Assembly (NCBI GenBank): GCA_030123585.1
Contig: CP126120.1
Span: 2,357,001-2,421,000, forward strand
Direction of reading: 5' to 3'
Length of the DNA: 64,000 nucleotides
Origin: Rhodanobacteraceae bacterium
Lineage (GTDB): Bacteria > Pseudomonadota > Gammaproteobacteria > Xanthomonadales > Rhodanobacteraceae
The notes beneath the pieces were generated by a model, which had not been told where the DNA came from, did no database searches, and saw only the letters and a list, made by a program, of their open reading frames with translations. A program made the translations under genes and the position numbers. Positions 3,388-13,158 of the stretch are shown piece after piece (position 1 is the stretch's first letter; the number at the start of each line of letters is the position of its first letter).

Positions 3388-4488
3388 TCAGGAATCCGTG
3401 CCGCTCGTGACCGGCGCCACTTCACCCTGCGGCGCAGACTTGTCGGCGGACGCGGATTGCGTGCGTTCGAGATGCGCGGTGAACGCGACATACAGCACCA
3501 GCACCACCGCGAACGCCACCAGGTTCGCGACCGCGCCCAACTCTGCGTGGATCACGAACCCCACCGAGGGCAACACCAGCGCGAACGCGACGAGATACAC
3601 CAGCGTGCGGCGTGGCCCCATCCCGGCGTTCATCAGCAGGTGATGGATGTGGGTGCGGTCCGGCGTGAAAGGCGACACGCCGCGCTTGAGGCGCCGGAAG
3701 ATCACGGCCAGCGTATCCATCACGGGCAGCGCGACGCACCACAGCACCAGCCCGGGCGAGATATGCCGCGGCGAACTCTGGCTCAATACGATCAGCGTCC
3801 AGGCGATGAGGTAGCCAAGCACCACGCTGCCGGAATCGCCGAGGAAAACCTTGGCTTTCCGGCCCAGCAATCCGAGGTTGGCCATCAGGTACGGATACAG
3901 CGCCGATGCCAGCAGCAGCACGATGACGGTCCGCGGCGCCGGCATGTCCGGCGCCATCAGCACGGCAATCGCGCCCGTGCTCACCAGCGCGAGGCAGCCC
4001 GCTAGACCGTCGATGCCATCCATGAGGTTGAACGCATTGATCAGCCCGATCACGGCCACGATGGTGAATGGAATGCCCAGCCATCCGAGCGTCAATTCGT
4101 ACCCGTGCAGCACGCCGAGCGAATGCACGTACACACCCGTCGTCGCCATCACGATCACGACCGCGGCGGTCTGCACCGCCACCCGCACGCTCACGCGCAA
4201 TCCGTAGCGGTCATCGAGCGCGCCTAGCGCCACCAGCACGCACGCCGTGGCCAGCACGATGTCGTCGAAACGCCGCAGATGTCCCAGCCATAACCACCCG
4301 GCCAGCACGCCCGCAAAAATCGACAGCCCGCCCACCAGCGGCGTGGCGAGCGCATGCCGTTTGCGCGCATCGGGATAATCGAGCAACCCGACCGATTTGC
4401 TCATGGGAACCAGCACGCACAATCCCAATGCCGACACGCTGATCGACACAAGGCAGGCTGACAAGACCGTGTGCGCGGCTGGAACCAT
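3388..4488 (-). CDS. wecA: Undecaprenyl-phosphate glycosyl-1-phosphate transferase, WecA/MraY family
   Basis: Encodes 366 residues from the ATG at 4486-4488; in-frame starts also exist at 4533 (ATG) and 4584 (TTG). It is a polytopic membrane protein. Family motifs are visible: DYPDARKRHALATPLVGG near the N-terminus, NAFNLMDGIDGLAG (acidic metal-binding loop), FLGDSGSVVLGYLIAW, and DRTHIHHLL, the basic His-rich loop of WecA/TagO proteins. It attaches the first sugar-1-phosphate of a surface glycan to undecaprenyl phosphate on the cytoplasmic face. It is convergent with the glycosyltransferase gene. The start I chose matches the usual family N-terminus (a hydrophobic helix straight after Met), but its Shine-Dalgarno match (GAGG) directly abuts the ATG, so the start is uncertain. 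Confidence 0.85.
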   Translation of the reverse strand: MVPAAHTVLSACLVSISVSALGLCVLVPMSKSVGLLDYPDARKRHALATPLVGGLSIFAGVLAGWLWLGHLRRFDDIVLATACVLVALGALDDRYGLRVSVRVAVQTAAVVIVMATTGVYVHSLGVLHGYELTLGWLGIPFTIVAVIGLINAFNLMDGIDGLAGCLALVSTGAIAVLMAPDMPAPRTVIVLLLASALYPYLMANLGLLGRKAKVFLGDSGSVVLGYLIAWTLIVLSQSSPRHISPGLVLWCVALPVMDTLAVIFRRLKRGVSPFTPDRTHIHHLLMNAGMGPRRTLVYLVAFALVLPSVGFVIHAELGAVANLVAFAVVLVLYVAFTAHLERTQSASADKSAPQGEVAPVTSGTDS

Positions 4489-4935
4489 CCTCGAAAATCT
4501 GGGCAGGCGGGAGGACCAGTATGCGCATGCCATCGAAACTGCTGCTGAATATTTTCGAGGAATGTAGGGCAGTAATTTCTCCAAAATGAACGTGTTTATC
4601 TACCCCAATGCTCCATGAATGAACTGCCGATTTGTCCATGCATGACGTCGGATTTTCATCGGAAAGGATTGCCGGGTTTGACGCGTGCATGTCGTGGGCG
4701 TGCCGGGGGTCGCGCGAGTGCGCATCCGCACATCGCGCGGATGACCCACCTGTGAACGTCGCGGCGCCGGGACCTGAGCGGTGTCCTGCAGAAGCCGGCG
4801 CCGGACCTGCACGGCATGAATGTTGCTTGTATCCTGCTGCAGCGGGATGGGGGAGATCGCACTGGGCATCGGTCCGTCCTTCTTTTCCGGCCCGCCGCAA
4901 CCGTCGGGGAAGATCCCGGCTGCGAGGAACCGCGA
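4489..4935. other. Long intergenic region, divergent upstream of wecA and a small membrane protein
   Basis: About 450 bases with no convincing gene. The part nearest wecA (4550-4640) is AT-rich compared with its surroundings and probably holds the wecA promoter on the minus strand. A 10-bp inverted repeat, CCTCGAAAAT at 4489-4498 and ATTTTCGAGG at 4551-4560, lies in it. The rest is G+C rich with short dyads and shows no riboswitch or RNA gene that I recognise. Confidence 0.4.
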
Positions 4936-5329: not shown

Positions 5330-7375
5330 ATGCCCGCCTTCACGCGTTGTCTCGCCCTGCTGCTCGCCGGTTTCATTTTCGTGCCGCTCGCGCGCGCCGA
5401 CGCGCCGCCGGCGCAATCGGAAAACGCGCGGATCGAGCACATCCTGGCGCAACGCGCCAAAGTCAAGGACATCCCGGTCGTGGCGCTGTCCTGGGACGGA
5501 CAGCGTCTTGCGTGGGTGGTGTCGCACGACGACAAGACCACGCTGATGCTCGCGTCGTGGAACGGACAGAACGCCCGCCCGGCCGGGATTCCGGGCGATT
5601 GCCGTGAACAGGACCTTCGCTGGGCGCCGCGCGCAAACGAGCTGGCGGTGCTGACCCGCTGCAAGGTCGATCCTTCCAACACCAAGCCGATCCGCGGCGC
5701 GATCTGGCTGATCGATGTGCAGCGCGGCCAGCCGCCGCGCAAGCTCGCCGACATCGAGGGCTTCGCGCAGGGCATGCAGTGGAGCCGTGACGGCCAGCGC
5801 ATCGCGTTCCTGTACGTGCCGGGCGCGACGCGCCTGCCCTACGCGACCGCATCCGGCAACCCGCGCGTCGGCGTGATCGGCGAAACCGATGAGCAGGTGG
5901 AGCGTATCGCGCAGATCCCGGTTGCGGGAGGTGCGGTGGAAGTCCTGACGCCCGAGAACCTGTACGTCTACGAATTCCGGCTGTCGCCGATCGGCAACCG
6001 CCTTGCGTACACCGCCGCGCCGCCGCCGGGCGACAACAACTGGTGGACGGCCAAACTGTACGTGCAGGATGCGCGGGCGGGCGCCGCGCCCAAGATGATC
6101 GTCGATCCGGCCACGGTGGAAGGCCCGCTGCATGGACTGCAGATGGCGCTGCCGCGCTGGTCCCCCGATGCCGCGCGCATCGTTTTCATCGGCGGACTGA
6201 TGAGCGATCGCGGCGCCACCGGCGGCGACCTCTACGGCGTGCCCGCGTCGGGCGGCACGCCGATCGACCTGACCGAAGGCATCAAGGTCACGCCGGCGTG
6301 GTTCACCTTCCTCGGCCCGCGCTCGCTGCTGGTCAACCAGATCGCGAGCGGCAAGGTGCAGGTCACGGAATACACGCTCGACGGCAACGTCGCGCGGCAG
6401 ACCCGCACCTGGTTCACCGCACCCGGCCGCATCGGCGACGGGCGCGCCGAACTGTCCGTGGCGCTGTCGGACAAGGCGCCGTTGCGCATCGCCTACGCCG
6501 CGGATTCCTTCGATGAGCCGCCCGAGGTGCACGCAGGCTTGCTCGCCACCCGGCCGCCGCCCGCGGTCACGACCATCAACGCCGATCTCAAACCCGAATG
6601 GGGCAAGACGCAATCGGTGGAATGGAACCACGGCGGTTTCCGCGTGCAGGGCTGGCTGATGTACCCGGCCCGCTACGACGCGCACCGGCGCTATCCGATG
6701 ATCGTGTACGTCCACGGCGGCCCGTCCTCGGCCACCCTTCCGGCCTGGCGCAACAACGCGACCGCGCTTTCGCAATTCGGCTACTTCGTGCTGATGCCGA
6801 ACCCGCGCGGCAGCTTCGGCGAAGGCGAGGCGTTCGCGCAGGCCATCCGCAACCAGATGGGCTACGGCGATCTCGACGACATCCTCGCGGGCGTGGACAA
6901 GGTCGAGAAACTGGCGCCGATCGACAACGCCCGGCTCGGGATGACGGGCTGGAGCTACGGCGGTTTCATGAGCATGTTCGCGCCGACGCGCACCCACCGT
7001 TTCAAGGCGGTGGTGGCGGGCGCGGGGCTGTCCGACTGGCAGAGCTACTACGGCGAGAACCAGATCGACCAGTGGATGATCCCGTTCTTCGGCGCGTCGC
7101 TGTACGACGATCCGGCGGCCTACGCGAAAAGTTCGGCGATCAATTTCATCAGGAACACCCAAACGCCCGCGTTGATCGTGGTGGGCGAGCGCGACGAGGA
7201 ATGCCCGGCGCCGCAGTCGTTCGAATACTGGCACGCGCTCAAGACGCTGGGCGTGCCGACCACGCTGGTGGTGTACGCCAACCAGGGTCACCACATCGCC
7301 GACCATGTCGATCAGGAAGACATCCTGCGACGCACGCTGGACTGGTTCGGGAAATACCTGTCGGCGTCCCAATGA
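5330..7375 (+). CDS. Secreted S9-family prolyl oligopeptidase-like peptidase
   Basis: Encodes 681 residues from the ATG at 5330 (an in-frame start at 5288 would put extra residues before the signal). Residues 1-24 are a signal peptide ending in LARADA, so the enzyme is exported. The first ~400 residues contain repeats typical of a beta-propeller (for example MQWSRDGQRIAFLYV and LPRWSPDAARIVFIG). The C-terminal alpha/beta hydrolase domain has the catalytic triad: Ser542 in GMTGWSYGGFMS, Asp622 in GERDEECP and His654 in NQGHHIAD. Family members cleave short peptides, often after proline, in the periplasm or outside. It is convergent with the radical SAM gene. Confidence 0.92.
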   Translation: MPAFTRCLALLLAGFIFVPLARADAPPAQSENARIEHILAQRAKVKDIPVVALSWDGQRLAWVVSHDDKTTLMLASWNGQNARPAGIPGDCREQDLRWAPRANELAVLTRCKVDPSNTKPIRGAIWLIDVQRGQPPRKLADIEGFAQGMQWSRDGQRIAFLYVPGATRLPYATASGNPRVGVIGETDEQVERIAQIPVAGGAVEVLTPENLYVYEFRLSPIGNRLAYTAAPPPGDNNWWTAKLYVQDARAGAAPKMIVDPATVEGPLHGLQMALPRWSPDAARIVFIGGLMSDRGATGGDLYGVPASGGTPIDLTEGIKVTPAWFTFLGPRSLLVNQIASGKVQVTEYTLDGNVARQTRTWFTAPGRIGDGRAELSVALSDKAPLRIAYAADSFDEPPEVHAGLLATRPPPAVTTINADLKPEWGKTQSVEWNHGGFRVQGWLMYPARYDAHRRYPMIVYVHGGPSSATLPAWRNNATALSQFGYFVLMPNPRGSFGEGEAFAQAIRNQMGYGDLDDILAGVDKVEKLAPIDNARLGMTGWSYGGFMSMFAPTRTHRFKAVVAGAGLSDWQSYYGENQIDQWMIPFFGASLYDDPAAYAKSSAINFIRNTQTPALIVVGERDEECPAPQSFEYWHALKTLGVPTTLVVYANQGHHIADHVDQEDILRRTLDWFGKYLSASQ

Positions 7376-8831: not shown

Positions 8832-8851
8832 TTTGTGCGCATGCGCACAAA
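8832..8851. promoter_or_regulatory. Perfect 20-bp palindrome upstream of the exporter genes
   Basis: TTTGTGCGCATGCGCACAAA is a perfect palindrome. It is flanked by CATAAC (8822-8827) and GTTATG (8854-8859), themselves inverted, so the whole dyad spans 38 bases. It sits about 85 bases before the HlyD start and between two divergent genes, the usual place for a repressor or activator site. The regulator is unknown and not encoded in the island. Confidence 0.55.
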
Positions 8852-8934
8852 AAGTTATGAAAACGAAAGGTTGGCGAAAGGTCCACTCGCTAAAACTTTG
8901 GCCAGTCATCACCAGGAGCAGGGACAACAGGGGC

Positions 8935-10203
8935 ATGGGAGATCTGTTTCGCAAGGAAGCGTTGCAAGCGCAACGCGGTCAATGGATGGGCGCGATCAAT
9001 CTCGCGACTCCGCTGTCCTTCGTGTGGTGGGCGTTGCTGGCTGCAGCACTCGCTGCAGCGATCGTCCTGTTCCTGATCTTCGGTCAGTACACCCGCCGCG
9101 CCGATGTCACGGGGCAACTCGAGCCCACCGCGGGCATGCTCACCCTTTCGGCCAAGACCACCGGCATCGTCAAGCGCACGCTGGTGCATGAGGGTGAACA
9201 GGTCAAGGCGAACCAGCCATTGGTCGAAGTGGCGGCCGATCTGGTCAGCAGCATGGGTGATACCCACGCCGTGGTCAGTGCGCAATTGCGCGCGCAGGAA
9301 ACCCAGGTTCGCGCCACGCTGGCCAATCTCCAGCCACAGGCTAATGAGCAATCCAGGGATTTGCGCAACCGGATCGGCATGCTGCAGGCGCAGGTGCGCC
9401 AGATCGACGTGCAACTGGCCCTGCAACGCAAGCAAGTCATCACGGCCACGAGCTTCGTTTCGAAAATCCAGCCATTGGTGACTCGAGGCGTCGTTTCCGT
9501 TGCGCAGTTCAATGCTTACCAATCGGCCGCGTTGAATGATCAGGCTCAGGAGAAGGCGCTGGAACGCCAGCGCCTCGACACCGAACAGCAGTTGAGCGCG
9601 CTGCAAGCGCAATTGACGCAACTTCCGCTGGACACCACGGCCAAGGCGAATCAACTGCGTGGACAACTCGCGCAGCTCGACGCACAACTGGCCGAGAACG
9701 CTGCACAAGCCGGCACCGTATTGCGCGCGCCGCGCGCGGGCATCGTTTCGACCCTGCTGGTGAAGACAGGCCAGAACGTCGTTGCCGGTCAGCCGGTATT
9801 GTCGATCCTGCCGCAGGGGTCGAAGCTGGAGGCGCAACTGCTGGTGCCCAGCAGCGCGATCGGTTTCGTGGCGCCCGGCAACCGCGTGGTGCTGCGCTAT
9901 CAGGCGTATCCCTATCAGAAGTTCGGCCAGCAATACGGCAAGGTCGTGCAGGTGTCGCGCAGCGCGCTCAGCAACGCTGAGGTGGCGAGTCTGCTGGGCC
10001 AGAACGTCGCGGTGCCGTTGTACCGCGTGCTGGTCGCGTTGGACCGCCAACACATCGACGCCTATGGCAAGGCCGAAGCGCTCAAACCCGGCATGGCCCT
10101 GAACGCCGACATCCTGCTGGACCGCCGCAGCCTGTGGCAATGGGTATTCGAACCGCTGTACGGCTTGCGGCAGCAGCTTGCAGCCAATGGAGCGCATCAC
10201 TAA
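8935..10203 (+). CDS. HlyD-family periplasmic adaptor of a peptide exporter
   Basis: Encodes 422 residues. One N-terminal membrane helix (about residues 28-50) is followed by a first lipoyl half (GIVKRTLVHEGEQVKANQPLV), a long Gln/Ala-rich coiled coil (about 110-260), a second lipoyl half (LRAPRAGIVSTLLVKTGQNV) and a beta-barrel/C-terminal part. It is the membrane-fusion protein that would link an inner-membrane ABC exporter to an outer-membrane TolC channel. No TolC gene is present here, so a chromosomal one elsewhere would be used, as for other peptide microcins. The stop overlaps the start of the ABC gene (TAATG), so the two subunits are translationally coupled. An earlier in-frame ATG at 8857 is possible. 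Confidence 0.92.
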   Translation: MGDLFRKEALQAQRGQWMGAINLATPLSFVWWALLAAALAAAIVLFLIFGQYTRRADVTGQLEPTAGMLTLSAKTTGIVKRTLVHEGEQVKANQPLVEVAADLVSSMGDTHAVVSAQLRAQETQVRATLANLQPQANEQSRDLRNRIGMLQAQVRQIDVQLALQRKQVITATSFVSKIQPLVTRGVVSVAQFNAYQSAALNDQAQEKALERQRLDTEQQLSALQAQLTQLPLDTTAKANQLRGQLAQLDAQLAENAAQAGTVLRAPRAGIVSTLLVKTGQNVVAGQPVLSILPQGSKLEAQLLVPSSAIGFVAPGNRVVLRYQAYPYQKFGQQYGKVVQVSRSALSNAEVASLLGQNVAVPLYRVLVALDRQHIDAYGKAEALKPGMALNADILLDRRSLWQWVFEPLYGLRQQLAANGAHH

Positions 10204-12362
10204 TGAGCGGTAACGCGACCATGGATGGCGGTTTCCTCGACGGCCTGCAATGGGGCTGGCGGCGCAAGCTGCCGATGATCCTGCAAACCGAAGCCGCCGA
10301 ATGCGGGCTGGCGTCGCTGGCGATGATCGCGCGCCATCACGGTCACGATGTCGATCTGCCGTCGTTGCGACGCCGGCATGCGATGTCGTTGAAAGGCGCC
10401 AATCTCGCACGGGTGATGGAGATGGCCGCCAAACTGAGCTTCGAGACGCGTCCGTTGCGGCTGGAGCTCGATGAACTGCCCGAACTCAAGACGCCTTGCA
10501 TCCTGCATTGGGACTTAAACCATTTCGTGGTGCTGAAGCAGGCGACGAAACGCGGCGCAGTGATCCACGACCCGGCGCGTGGGGTGCTCAAACTCTTCAA
10601 CGCCGAAATCTCCAAACACTTCACCGGCGTGGCGCTCGAATTGAGTCCCGGCGCCGACTTCAAGCCGGTCAAGGCGCGCCAATCCATTTCGCTGCGTGCG
10701 CTGACCGGCAAGGTCAAGGGCTTGCCACGCGCGCTGATCCAGATCTTCGTGCTGGCGTTGGCGCTGGAAGTATTCGCGCTAGTCGGTCCGTTCTACCTGC
10801 AATGGGTGCTGGATCAAGTATTGGTCTCGGCCGACAAGAGCCTGTTGATGCTGCTCGGCATCGGCTTCCTGCTGGTGGCGCTGTTCCAGGCCGCGATTTC
10901 GGCGGTGCGCGCATGGACCATCACCTGGCTGGGCGCGATGCTGAACGTGCAGTGGATCACCAACGTGTTCGCGCACCTCTTGAAGCTGCCACTGGATTGG
11001 TACGAGAAGCGCCACGTCGGCGATGTGGTGTCGCGCTTCGGCTCGATGCAGACCATCCAGCAAACCCTCACCACCGGGTTCGTGGCTGCGATCCTGGACG
11101 GCATCATGGCCAGCCTGACCCTGGTGGTACTGGCGCTCTACAGCGTCAAGCTGACCCTGATCGTGCTGGCAGCGTTTGCGCTGTACGCCATCCTGCGCTG
11201 GTTCACCTACCAGCCGCTGCGGCGTGCGCAGGAAGACCAGATCGTTTACGCCGCGCGCCAGCAGACCGAGTTGCTGGAGGCCATCCGCGGCGCGCAGACG
11301 TTGAAGCTGTTCAACCAGCAGCAGCCGCGTACCGCGCGTTACGCCAATGCGGTCGTGGAAACGGTCAACCGCAACATCGCGATGCAGCGGCTCAACATCG
11401 CCTTCACCAGCGGCAACCAGTTGATCTTCGGCATCGAGAGGGTGGCACTCATCTGGCTGGCAGCGCTGCTGGTGCTGGATGGCACGTTCACGGCCGGCAT
11501 GCTGGTGGCGTTCGCGGCCTACGCGGACCAGTTCGTGACCCGGGCCGCGAGCCTGATCGACAAAGGTATCGAGTTCCGGATGCTGCGCCTGCACGCCGAG
11601 CGGGTAGCAGACATTGCGCTGACTGCGCCCGAGCAGCACGTCGAATCGACGTGGGATGCACCGCTGCCGAAAGCCGAGATCGAAGTGCGCAACGTCAGCT
11701 TCCGCTATGCCGACGGCGAACCGTGGATTCTGAAGAATTGCTCGCTCACGATTTCGGCCGGCGAATCGGTGGCGCTGATCGGGCCGTCCGGCTGCGGCAA
11801 GACCACCTTGGCCAAGATCATCCTGGGCCTGCTGGAACCGCAGGAAGGCGAAGTGCTGTACGGCGGCATCGACATCAGACGATTGGGTCTTGGCCGCTAC
11901 CGCAATCAGGTCGGTGCGGTGATGCAGGACGATCAACTGTTCGCCGGCTCCATCGCCGACAACATCGCCTGCTTCGATACGGAATCCAGCCCGCTGCGCA
12001 TCGAAGCTGCCGCGCGGCTCGCCGCGATCCATGACGACATCGCCCGGATGCCGATGGGCTACCAGAGCCTTGTCGGCGACATGGGTTCGGCGCTATCCGG
12101 AGGTCAAAAACAGCGTGCCCTGCTGGCACGCGCCCTCTACCGCAAGCCCTCGCTATTGGTGCTGGACGAAGCCACCAGCCATCTCGACATCGAACACGAG
12201 CGGCAGGTCAACGCCGCCGTGAACCGACTCGCGATCACCCGCATCGTGATCGCCCACCGCCCCGAGACCATCGCCAGTGCGCAGCGCGCGCTGCTGGTTG
12301 CTAGCGGCGCGGTGCAACCCATTCCGTCTACCCATCCACGCGAAGTGGAGGTAGCGGGATAG
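10203..12362 (+). CDS. C39 peptidase-ABC exporter for double-glycine leader peptides
   Basis: Encodes 719 residues with three domains. Residues ~25-150 are a C39 cysteine peptidase: Cys34 in LQTEAAECGLASLAM, His107 in LHWDLNHFVVL and Asp123 in IHDPARG form the expected triad. Residues ~170-470 are the transmembrane domain. The C-terminal ATPase has Walker A GPSGCGKTT (527-535), signature LSGGQKQR (from 631) and Walker B LLVLDEATSHLD (~650-661). Such peptidase-containing transporters cut leaders after a GG-type site and export the mature peptide. The two peptide genes directly downstream are the obvious substrates. All catalytic residues that I can check are intact. Confidence 0.95.
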   Translation: MSGNATMDGGFLDGLQWGWRRKLPMILQTEAAECGLASLAMIARHHGHDVDLPSLRRRHAMSLKGANLARVMEMAAKLSFETRPLRLELDELPELKTPCILHWDLNHFVVLKQATKRGAVIHDPARGVLKLFNAEISKHFTGVALELSPGADFKPVKARQSISLRALTGKVKGLPRALIQIFVLALALEVFALVGPFYLQWVLDQVLVSADKSLLMLLGIGFLLVALFQAAISAVRAWTITWLGAMLNVQWITNVFAHLLKLPLDWYEKRHVGDVVSRFGSMQTIQQTLTTGFVAAILDGIMASLTLVVLALYSVKLTLIVLAAFALYAILRWFTYQPLRRAQEDQIVYAARQQTELLEAIRGAQTLKLFNQQQPRTARYANAVVETVNRNIAMQRLNIAFTSGNQLIFGIERVALIWLAALLVLDGTFTAGMLVAFAAYADQFVTRAASLIDKGIEFRMLRLHAERVADIALTAPEQHVESTWDAPLPKAEIEVRNVSFRYADGEPWILKNCSLTISAGESVALIGPSGCGKTTLAKIILGLLEPQEGEVLYGGIDIRRLGLGRYRNQVGAVMQDDQLFAGSIADNIACFDTESSPLRIEAAARLAAIHDDIARMPMGYQSLVGDMGSALSGGQKQRALLARALYRKPSLLVLDEATSHLDIEHERQVNAAVNRLAITRIVIAHRPETIASAQRALLVASGAVQPIPSTHPREVEVAG

Positions 12363-12411
12363 CCGAAGCCGGGGCGGCTTTATATTCCCGGGACATCGAA
12401 GGAGCCGAAGT

Positions 12412-12636
12412 ATGCGTGCTTTGACCAATAATGACGTTCAAATCGTAGCAGCCGGAGCGAGTGCTCCCGGCATGACGGCCGGTGCCGCGATGTTGGGGGG
12501 AGCCGTAGGAGGTGCCGAGATCGGAGGAGAAGTGGGTGCCTCGGTCGGCGGAGTGGTGGGTGCGGTTGTTGGAGCCGCATTAGGTGTTGGAATTGGCGCC
12601 GTTGCAGGCGCCATTGCGTATATGGAATCCAAGTAA
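12412..12636 (+). CDS. Glycine-zipper bacteriocin-like peptide 1 with GG-type leader
   Basis: Encodes 74 residues, start supported by GAAGGAGC 5-8 bases upstream. The N-terminal 15 residues MRALTNNDVQIVAAG look like a double-glycine-type leader ending in Ala-Gly instead of Gly-Gly. The predicted core of 59 residues has no cysteine and is almost entirely Gly, Ala and Val with glycines at every fourth position (GASVG, GAVVG, GAALG, GVGIG, GAVAG), ending in GAIAYMESK. Such GxxxG zippers let two membrane helices pack, as in class IIb (lactobin/cerein-type) two-peptide bacteriocins. It lies 49 bases after the C39 exporter and 13 bases before a related peptide gene. The antibacterial role is inferred. 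Confidence 0.8.
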   Translation: MRALTNNDVQIVAAGASAPGMTAGAAMLGGAVGGAEIGGEVGASVGGVVGAVVGAALGVGIGAVAGAIAYMESK

Positions 12637-12649
12637 AGGAGAGCGTCGA

Positions 12650-12895
12650 ATGAATACATTGTCTGCAAACCAAATTGGTTTGATTTCTGGCGGGGATGGC
12701 AGTGCGGGAGGGCTGCTCGCGGCAGGAGCAGCTGGCGGTTTAAGCATGGGCGCAGCACTCGCCGAAGGTGGCGCGGCTGTTGGAACCTTGGTGGCTGGTC
12801 CCGCCGGCACTGTTGTCGGAGGTGCCGTGGGAGCTGCCGTCGGAGCCGTTCTAGGTAGCGTCGTCGGGGGGCTGGCTTACATCGAGAGCCACTGA
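12650..12895 (+). CDS. Glycine-zipper bacteriocin-like peptide 2 with GG leader
   Basis: Encodes 81 residues from an ATG preceded by AAAGGAGAGC, a strong ribosome site. The leader MNTLSANQIGLISGG has the canonical double glycine, with the hydrophobic spacing seen in peptides handled by C39 exporters. The 66-residue core lacks cysteine and carries a glycine zipper (GLSMG, GAAVG, GTVVG, GAVLG, GSVVG), ending in GGLAYIESH, which is clearly related to the GAIAYMESK end of peptide 1. The two peptides look like a duplicated pair that could act together in a target membrane. A stem-loop terminator begins 8 bases after its stop codon. Confidence 0.85.
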   Translation: MNTLSANQIGLISGGDGSAGGLLAAGAAGGLSMGAALAEGGAAVGTLVAGPAGTVVGGAVGAAVGAVLGSVVGGLAYIESH

Positions 12896-12902
12896 TGGGA
12901 GT

Positions 12903-12932
12903 GGCCGCCCCGTCAGGGGCGGCCCTCTTCTG
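12903..12932 (+). terminator. Terminator after the two peptide genes
   Basis: A 9-bp stem GGCCGCCCC/GGGGCGGCC (12903-12911 and 12916-12924) with loop GTCA, followed by CTCTTCTG. The pyrimidine tail is imperfect, so it may be leaky and let some transcript reach the next small gene. Confidence 0.65.
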
Positions 12933-12954
12933 TACAAACGAAGCGGAGAGAATT

Positions 12955-13158
12955 GTGAACGCACCAAATACTAGAGTTCTCAGGGCAATCGTGTTTAGTA
13001 CCCTGATATTCGTTGTGATGCTTTCTGTAGGTGGAGGCTTCGTCTTTCACAGCCCATGGATAATCGTGGTTGCCCTCGCATCTATGGTTTTCATTGGGGT
13101 AGTTGTGTTGCTGGTTCTACGAATATCGGGTGTCACGGAATTAAAGAAGCCTCATTAG
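12955..13158 (+). CDS. Small two-helix membrane protein, candidate immunity protein
   Basis: Encodes 67 residues from a GTG preceded by GCGGAGAG at a good distance; the in-frame ATG at 12895 would start inside the terminator and is less likely. There are two hydrophobic segments (VLRAIVFSTLIFVVMLSV and IIVVALASMVFIGVVVLLVL) and a short basic tail ending LKKPH. Size, membrane topology and place directly after the peptide pair fit the immunity proteins of two-peptide bacteriocins, but there is no sequence motif to prove this. Its base composition is lower in G+C than the housekeeping genes nearby, which suggests that the island was acquired. Confidence 0.6.
   Translation: MNAPNTRVLRAIVFSTLIFVVMLSVGGGFVFHSPWIIVVALASMVFIGVVVLLVLRISGVTELKKPH

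Follow-up and report, generated by a model that had tools for sequence, protein, structure and literature searches.

Gene content of the exporter array

The locus lies within a 64-kb stretch of DNA (the window) from a complete 3.29-Mb Rhodanobacteraceae genome; relatives in Rhodanobacter, Dyella, and Frateuria belong to the same family. On its forward strand, genes for a HlyD-family periplasmic adaptor (8935..10203; Pfam HlyD_3, 2.8e-15; NCBIfam type_I_hlyD, 2.6e-37), a C39 peptidase-ABC exporter (PCAT; 10203..12362; Pfam Peptidase_C39, 2.4e-34, along with ABC_membrane and ABC_tran), and two GG-type precursor peptides form one array. The HlyD gene starts at the ATG at 8935, while position 8832, given in the initial annotation of this DNA, marks the limit of the longest open frame. 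The exporter belongs to the PCATs, as its N-terminal C39 domain is fused to the ABC part and has the catalytic Cys34, His107, and Asp123 in register with solved C39 domains (PDB 6mpz, 1.5e-24). These family matches and this alignment confirm the adaptor and the intact exporter of the initial annotation, and its observation that the island lacks a TolC also holds: several OEP-family genes are found in the genome, all outside the island.

Upstream of HlyD, the divergent promoter region contains a perfect 20-bp palindrome, TTTGTGCGCATGCGCACAAA (8832..8851), which is a candidate operator. Its layout recalls the CRP/Clp type (TGTG-N8-CACA). When sought upstream of the other clusters, it was matched, in part, only in the congener G014, where it has the same place.

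Paired glycine-zipper precursors

Precursor 1 (12412..12636, forward strand; 74 aa) is preceded by the Shine-Dalgarno sequence AAGGAG (12399..12404) and consists of the leader MRALTNNDVQIVAAG and a glycine-zipper core of 59 aa (about 5.0 kDa). Precursor 2 (12650..12895, same strand; 81 aa) has the leader MNTLSANQIGLISGG and a glycine-zipper core of 66 aa (about 5.6 kDa), and is followed by a terminator-like hairpin with 9 G-C pairs (12903..12924; fold z-score -5.4). Both follow a Shine-Dalgarno sequence, and each 15-residue leader is hydrophobic at positions -12, -7, and -4, a pattern that fits four of the 124 Shine-Dalgarno-preceded small ORF starts in the window; two of these four are the precursors themselves. 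The leader of precursor 2 ends in Gly-Gly and that of precursor 1 in Ala-Gly. The initial annotation had noted the Ala-Gly end as a possible cause of altered processing; the end is indeed present, but it is unlikely to be disqualifying, since this leader keeps the hydrophobic residues at -4, -7, and -12, and a further zipper cargo, L183, has the same Ala-Gly end.

Neither core contains cysteine, and Gly, Ala, Val, and Ile together account for 75% (precursor 1) and 70% (precursor 2) of the residues. The zipper stretches free of charge and proline span 31 and 27 residues, respectively, with 6 and 5 GxxxG sites; shuffles of matched composition have about 2 (P 0.0014 and 0.0064). The similarity between the two cores is greater than their composition explains (z 6.9, reached by 0 of 2000 shuffles), and both cores end in a short, charged or polar C-terminus (YMESK in precursor 1, YIESH in precursor 2). 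They are also very hydrophobic (GRAVY about 1.1) and acidic (pI about 4.2). Altogether, this bears out the initial description of two leader-bearing, cysteine-free zippers with related C-termini. AlphaFold models, which were made without alignments and yield only helices of moderate confidence, predict helices at residues 6-36 and 40-73 of precursor 1 (pLDDT 76) and at residues 31-80 of precursor 2 (pLDDT 71).

The comparison with bacteriocin profiles that the initial annotation had proposed placed neither peptide in the lactobin/cerein family, and at E up to 1 neither matched any Pfam or NCBIfam model. Searched against PDB sequences and plasmids, the precursors returned no relative, and precursor 2 as a lone query in the family gave weak matches only. 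A profile outperformed the single query, yet it also drew unrelated conserved-tail zipper proteins and a Gly-zipper lipoprotein. Across the order, the profile search found three further adjacent zipper pairs, one with its own exporter in the order HlyD-pepA-pepB-ABC (G471) and two without a nearby exporter (G446 and G092), so the two-peptide arrangement recurs. Among 113 distinct related exporter loci, two zipper cargos downstream of the exporter are found only in the window. Homologues in a structural family unlinked to exporters, which would have spoken against the initial reading, did not turn up; the related zipper peptides mostly adjoin such exporters.

Candidate immunity gene and exchange of cargo

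Behind the hairpin, a gene with a GTG start (ORF3; 12955..13158, forward strand) encodes a 67-aa protein with two predicted transmembrane (TM) segments. ORF3 has no Pfam or NCBIfam family match, and a homologue search gave only marginal matches, in larger frames, and no recognizable homologue. On the same strand, the cargo is followed by a small protein with two or more TM segments in 9 of 22 related loci, compared to 0 of 22 on the opposite strand and 1 of 19 farther downstream (controls pooled, 1 of 41; Fisher P 1.6e-4). By eye, these small TM proteins have no mutual homology, as expected for cognate immunity proteins. The product of ORF3 is a candidate immunity protein, most likely the cognate one. 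With the strong hairpin at 12903-12924 standing between it and the precursors, ORF3 may need read-through or its own promoter.

The search for the same cluster in other Rhodanobacteraceae, also proposed initially, found the exporter in 73 of the 234 genomes of the family, a patchy distribution. In the window, the cluster is flanked by a radical-SAM gene and an M16 peptidase gene; the congener G007 has both neighbors with no cluster between them, and the congener G014 has HlyD/ABC genes at the same site. A second HlyD/C39-ABC cluster is located at 1.156 Mb in the window genome (G000:C1:1155474-1157912, locus L009), and its ABC protein is 84% identical. The L009 cluster has a different, cysteine-containing zipper precursor, its own copy of the pseudoknot described below, and its own small two-TM gene. 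In the genome G016, three equally scoring exporter copies lie within 50 kb (C1:2579139, 2608947, and 2626689), which suggests local amplification.

Exporters that are 84-91% identical carry otherwise different cargo: a zipper pair in the window, single zippers at L009 and L044, and a Cys-rich precursor at L046. At the last of these loci, from Rhodanobacter sp. A1T4 (G175), the exporter is 85% identical to that of the window and the Cys-rich precursor lies about 126 nt after the ABC gene; the same exporter type therefore handles very different cargo. In an alignment of the junctions, similarity continues past the exporter stop codon by about 20 nt and is then lost. In 14 of 14 loci examined, the third-position GC (GC3) is lower in the cargo (36-73%) than in the exporter (67-86%), and a TM gene downstream of the cargo has a similar GC3 to the cargo. 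The window follows this pattern, with 51% for precursor 1, 53% for precursor 2, and 48% for ORF3 versus 83% for the exporter. Based on the low GC3 of cargo and TM gene, and on the high identity of exporters whose cargoes differ, cargo and TM gene appear to form an exchangeable cassette behind a resident exporter. The low cargo GC3 could instead reflect codon choice in small genes, and not transfer.

A covarying pseudoknot in the leader of the cargo genes

Upstream of precursor 1, the 5' leader contains a 33-nt H-type pseudoknot (12361..12393, forward strand), supported by covariation, which begins in the exporter stop codon and ends 18 nt before the start of precursor 1, 5 nt before its Shine-Dalgarno sequence. 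Stem A is formed by GCCG and CGGC, and in stem B the loop of A pairs with a downstream heptamer. The alignment of exporter-cargo junctions revealed 18 conserved nucleotides, AGCCGAAGYNNGGRCGGC. This sequence has eight exact matches in 1.93 Mb of loci, and each of them sits 30-36 nt before the start codon of a GG-leader gene. With up to four mismatches, the element lies 25-45 nt upstream of 20 of 130 GG-leader-like ORFs (one of the 20 looks spurious), versus 0.85 expected from shuffled upstream sequences. In whole genomes, the 18-nt core with one mismatch is no more frequent than background, so our case for the RNA relies on exact or model-based matches.

The pairing partner of the loop heptamer is a second heptamer that lies 3-9 nt downstream, and their complementarity exceeds that of partner-swapped sequences (z 7.2). 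In nine ungapped sequences, whose choice by the 18-nt pattern biases stem A but not stem B, 97% of cells are paired and five pairs changed on both sides; 0 of 500 shuffles of this alignment match any measure. In 30 sequences, fitted to stem B and not to stem A, 97.3% of cells are paired and 26 are doubly changed, with compensatory changes in both stems. When only nested pairs are allowed, the folding energy of the cargo leader is not significant, in keeping with a pseudoknot. The element has no match in Rfam 15 (best chance matches, E above 3), and we found no paper that describes it.

In Rhodanobacteraceae, Lysobacter, and a second genus of Xanthomonadaceae, the pseudoknot recurs 15-35 nt before GG-leader genes that are otherwise unrelated. 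We built a covariance model from the nine sequences; its matches outside the training set with E below 0.05 (L098, L145, L064, L058, L087, and L057/L103) are all upstream of GG-leader ORFs, and matches below threshold at L062 and L239 also lie directly before such ORFs. E-values of these short models are rough, and matches above about E 2e-3 are mostly noise, in or near unrelated genes. Among the 16 best matches in the 234 family genomes (E up to 1.4e-3), 14 lie 15-25 nt before GG-leader genes, compared to a background of 0.3-0.6% for a GG-leader ORF after a random position; most of the 14 are training loci, while those in G133 and G131 are new. At L047, which occupies the same place as L017, the element is about 1.1 kb behind the exporter and directly before the cargo, indicating that it travels with the cargo. 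At L129, each of two cargo genes has its own copy (3872-3900 and 4828-4856).

The remaining two of the 16 best matches, in the window genome (G000:C1:958153-958185, reverse strand; L304, 9154-9186) and in the congener G001 (L305, 8355), precede a gene for a 49-50-aa peptide that has no GG leader. This peptide contains repeated SPxAKKQE units (SPNAKKQE in the window genome) and has no family match. A third congener, G005, has a weaker match before a related repeat-peptide gene (L306, 4945), and the products range from 49 to 66 aa across the three congeners. The KQE-repeat peptide is possibly another precursor peptide.

In Xanthomonadaceae, the best matches in one genus (12 genomes) place the pseudoknot before a conserved GG-leader peptide; similarity to the named locus L145 suggests that this genus is Lysobacter. 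The peptide has the conserved core KGDTTHATGPNGDDPGDPD (L307-L315 and L322-L324, element at 1501; L145, element at 6168). In a second genus, probably Xanthomonas, and independent of the training set, the pseudoknot precedes a GG-leader His-rich protein with no Pfam match. This protein (L316, L317, L320, L321, L325, L326, L328-L330, and L335, element at 1501) exceeds 200 aa, with Gly-Glu repeats in L316, and several genomes have two element copies about 1.6 kb apart.

Role of the pseudoknot

The pseudoknot probably represents a class of cis-regulatory RNA not described before, which would jointly control C39-exported GG-leader genes across Xanthomonadales, together with at least one non-GG repeat-peptide gene. 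An unlikely alternative is that the element is a DNA site for recombination or cassette exchange, which would fit its position at the boundary of conserved exporter and variable cargo as well as the copy before each of the two cargo genes at L129. Such a site would not explain why the distance of 15-35 nt to the start codon is kept even away from exporters, nor why the element precedes a non-GG gene at a locus common to three congeners. Many of the covarying pairs are G-U, which supports pairing in RNA, and no second copy turned up at the far end of the cargo. We favor a 5'-leader regulatory RNA over a recombination site based on the constant start-codon distance, the G-U-rich covariation, and the unrelated gene at the locus common to congeners.

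As a regulatory RNA, the pseudoknot most likely controls translation of the precursors. In the window, a ribosome terminating on the exporter gene could melt it, coupling precursor synthesis to exporter translation, and the element is perhaps also tied to a trans-acting signal common to other C39 cargo genes. If so, secreted weapons that are not otherwise related would be switched on by a single signal. That a covarying pseudoknot marks GG-leader genes across the order is the unexpected part of our finding.

Proposed function of the secreted pair

The reading that we consider likely is a two-protein bacteriocin similar to the Cdz system of Caulobacter crescentus, encoded by a cargo and immunity cassette behind a resident exporter, with the pseudoknot most likely controlling translation. 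The C39 domain would cut the 15-residue leaders, and the ABC/HlyD pair, together with a housekeeping TolC, would export both zipper cores. By analogy to CdzC and CdzD, the small-residue-rich helical cores would associate via their GxxxG faces, either at the surface of the producer or within the membrane of the target, and would breach the envelope of neighbors that lack the cognate immunity protein. The initial annotation had proposed a two-component, C39-exported, microcin-like weapon in a xanthomonad-type bacterium, which remains the best-supported reading; a signal role, its other proposal, is possible. It had omitted the candidate immunity gene, the cassette-like cargo exchange, the hairpin, the RNA element, and the second paralogous cluster.

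It is possible, though less probable, that the pair is a freely diffusible two-peptide bacteriocin, class IIb-like or class IIa microcin-like, and not a surface-retained, contact-dependent one. Diffusible bacteriocins use the same leader and exporter type, and the single-cargo relatives with small TM genes share the gene order of Moraxella mcbABCI (PMC2761928). However, the zipper cores are very hydrophobic, like the aggregating CdzC; they have no receptor-binding or siderophore-type C-terminal extension, and the bacteriocin models in Pfam and NCBIfam do not match them.

Secreted matrix, adhesion, or aggregation proteins, amyloid-like and serving biofilm formation instead of killing, are an improbable explanation. 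Glycine zippers can drive stable aggregates, C39 exporters also carry non-toxic cargo, and the same exporter type bears quite different cargo at L046; still, the patchy presence, the strong cargo turnover, and the recurrent small membrane gene fit a toxin and its immunity protein better. We consider it very unlikely that these are self-lysis (autolysis or fratricide) peptides like the Neisseria Nap peptides (PMC11798529), which likewise have GG leaders and are encoded in a horizontally acquired island that includes a candidate immunity gene, but whose cores are short and cationic, in contrast to the acidic zippers of 59-66 aa here. Glycine-zipper membrane or outer-membrane proteins unrelated to export are hardly credible: some members of alignment A1 match Pfam Gly-zipper models, but the window peptides themselves do not, and both have GG-type leaders directly behind a C39 exporter.

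Comparison with known systems

To our knowledge, Cdz-type two-protein zipper killers include one experimentally studied example. In Cdz of C. crescentus (CdzABCDI), two type I-secreted zipper proteins kill on contact, and a small membrane protein confers immunity (PMC5380434). The published key features of Cdz are a length of 60-151 aa, a leader ending in G[G/A/S], an uninterrupted zipper, a short charged or polar C-terminus, and an adjacent type I exporter (PMC5380434). Both window precursors share these features, except that the leader of precursor 1 ends in AG. Further likenesses are a type I exporter pair that lacks a TolC of its own, two small proteins with zippers (84-86 aa in Cdz, 74-81 aa in the window), a composition in which small and hydrophobic residues make up 75%, a small membrane protein for immunity (in the window, a candidate), and a patchy distribution with variable toxins. 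The systems differ in operon order and strands, as cdzAB is divergent from cdzCDI; in the immunity protein, with three TM segments predicted for CdzI versus two for the ORF3 candidate; and in the pseudoknot that precedes the window cargo. The resemblance is one of parts and composition, by published description, so we call the system Cdz-like and not a proven member of Cdz.

Other systems share fewer of these traits. The mcbABCI locus of Moraxella catarrhalis has the same order of HlyD, C39-ABC, GG-leader peptide, and small immunity gene (74 aa), but encodes one peptide, whose core is predicted to be mostly beta and is not described as a zipper (PMC2761928). Gram-positive class IIb bacteriocins, to which the initial annotation had compared the pair, likewise combine two GG-leader GxxxG peptides with an immunity gene; they belong to a Gram-positive host and envelope, and the window precursors have no profile match. 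This comparison is weaker than that with the Gram-negative Cdz, which has the same parts. Class II microcins, including Xanthomonas candidates (PMC13174018), are PCAT-exported with a GG leader and often an adjacent immunity gene, whereas the pair in the window is free of cysteine and lacks a distinct C-terminal domain for uptake or antibacterial action. Cis-regulatory pseudoknots in Rfam resemble the window element as small H-type pseudoknots upstream of a ribosome-binding site, but form other families.

The system is Cdz-like, and the pseudoknot is its newest feature. The window provides a second clear Cdz-like gene set, in another proteobacterial class and with an immunity candidate that can be tested. 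The pseudoknot is of wider importance, as it unites unrelated secreted peptides into one candidate regulon and, requiring no similarity among the products, offers a cargo-independent route to C39-exported genes that evade homology searches. It also raises the direct question of which signal controls these genes.
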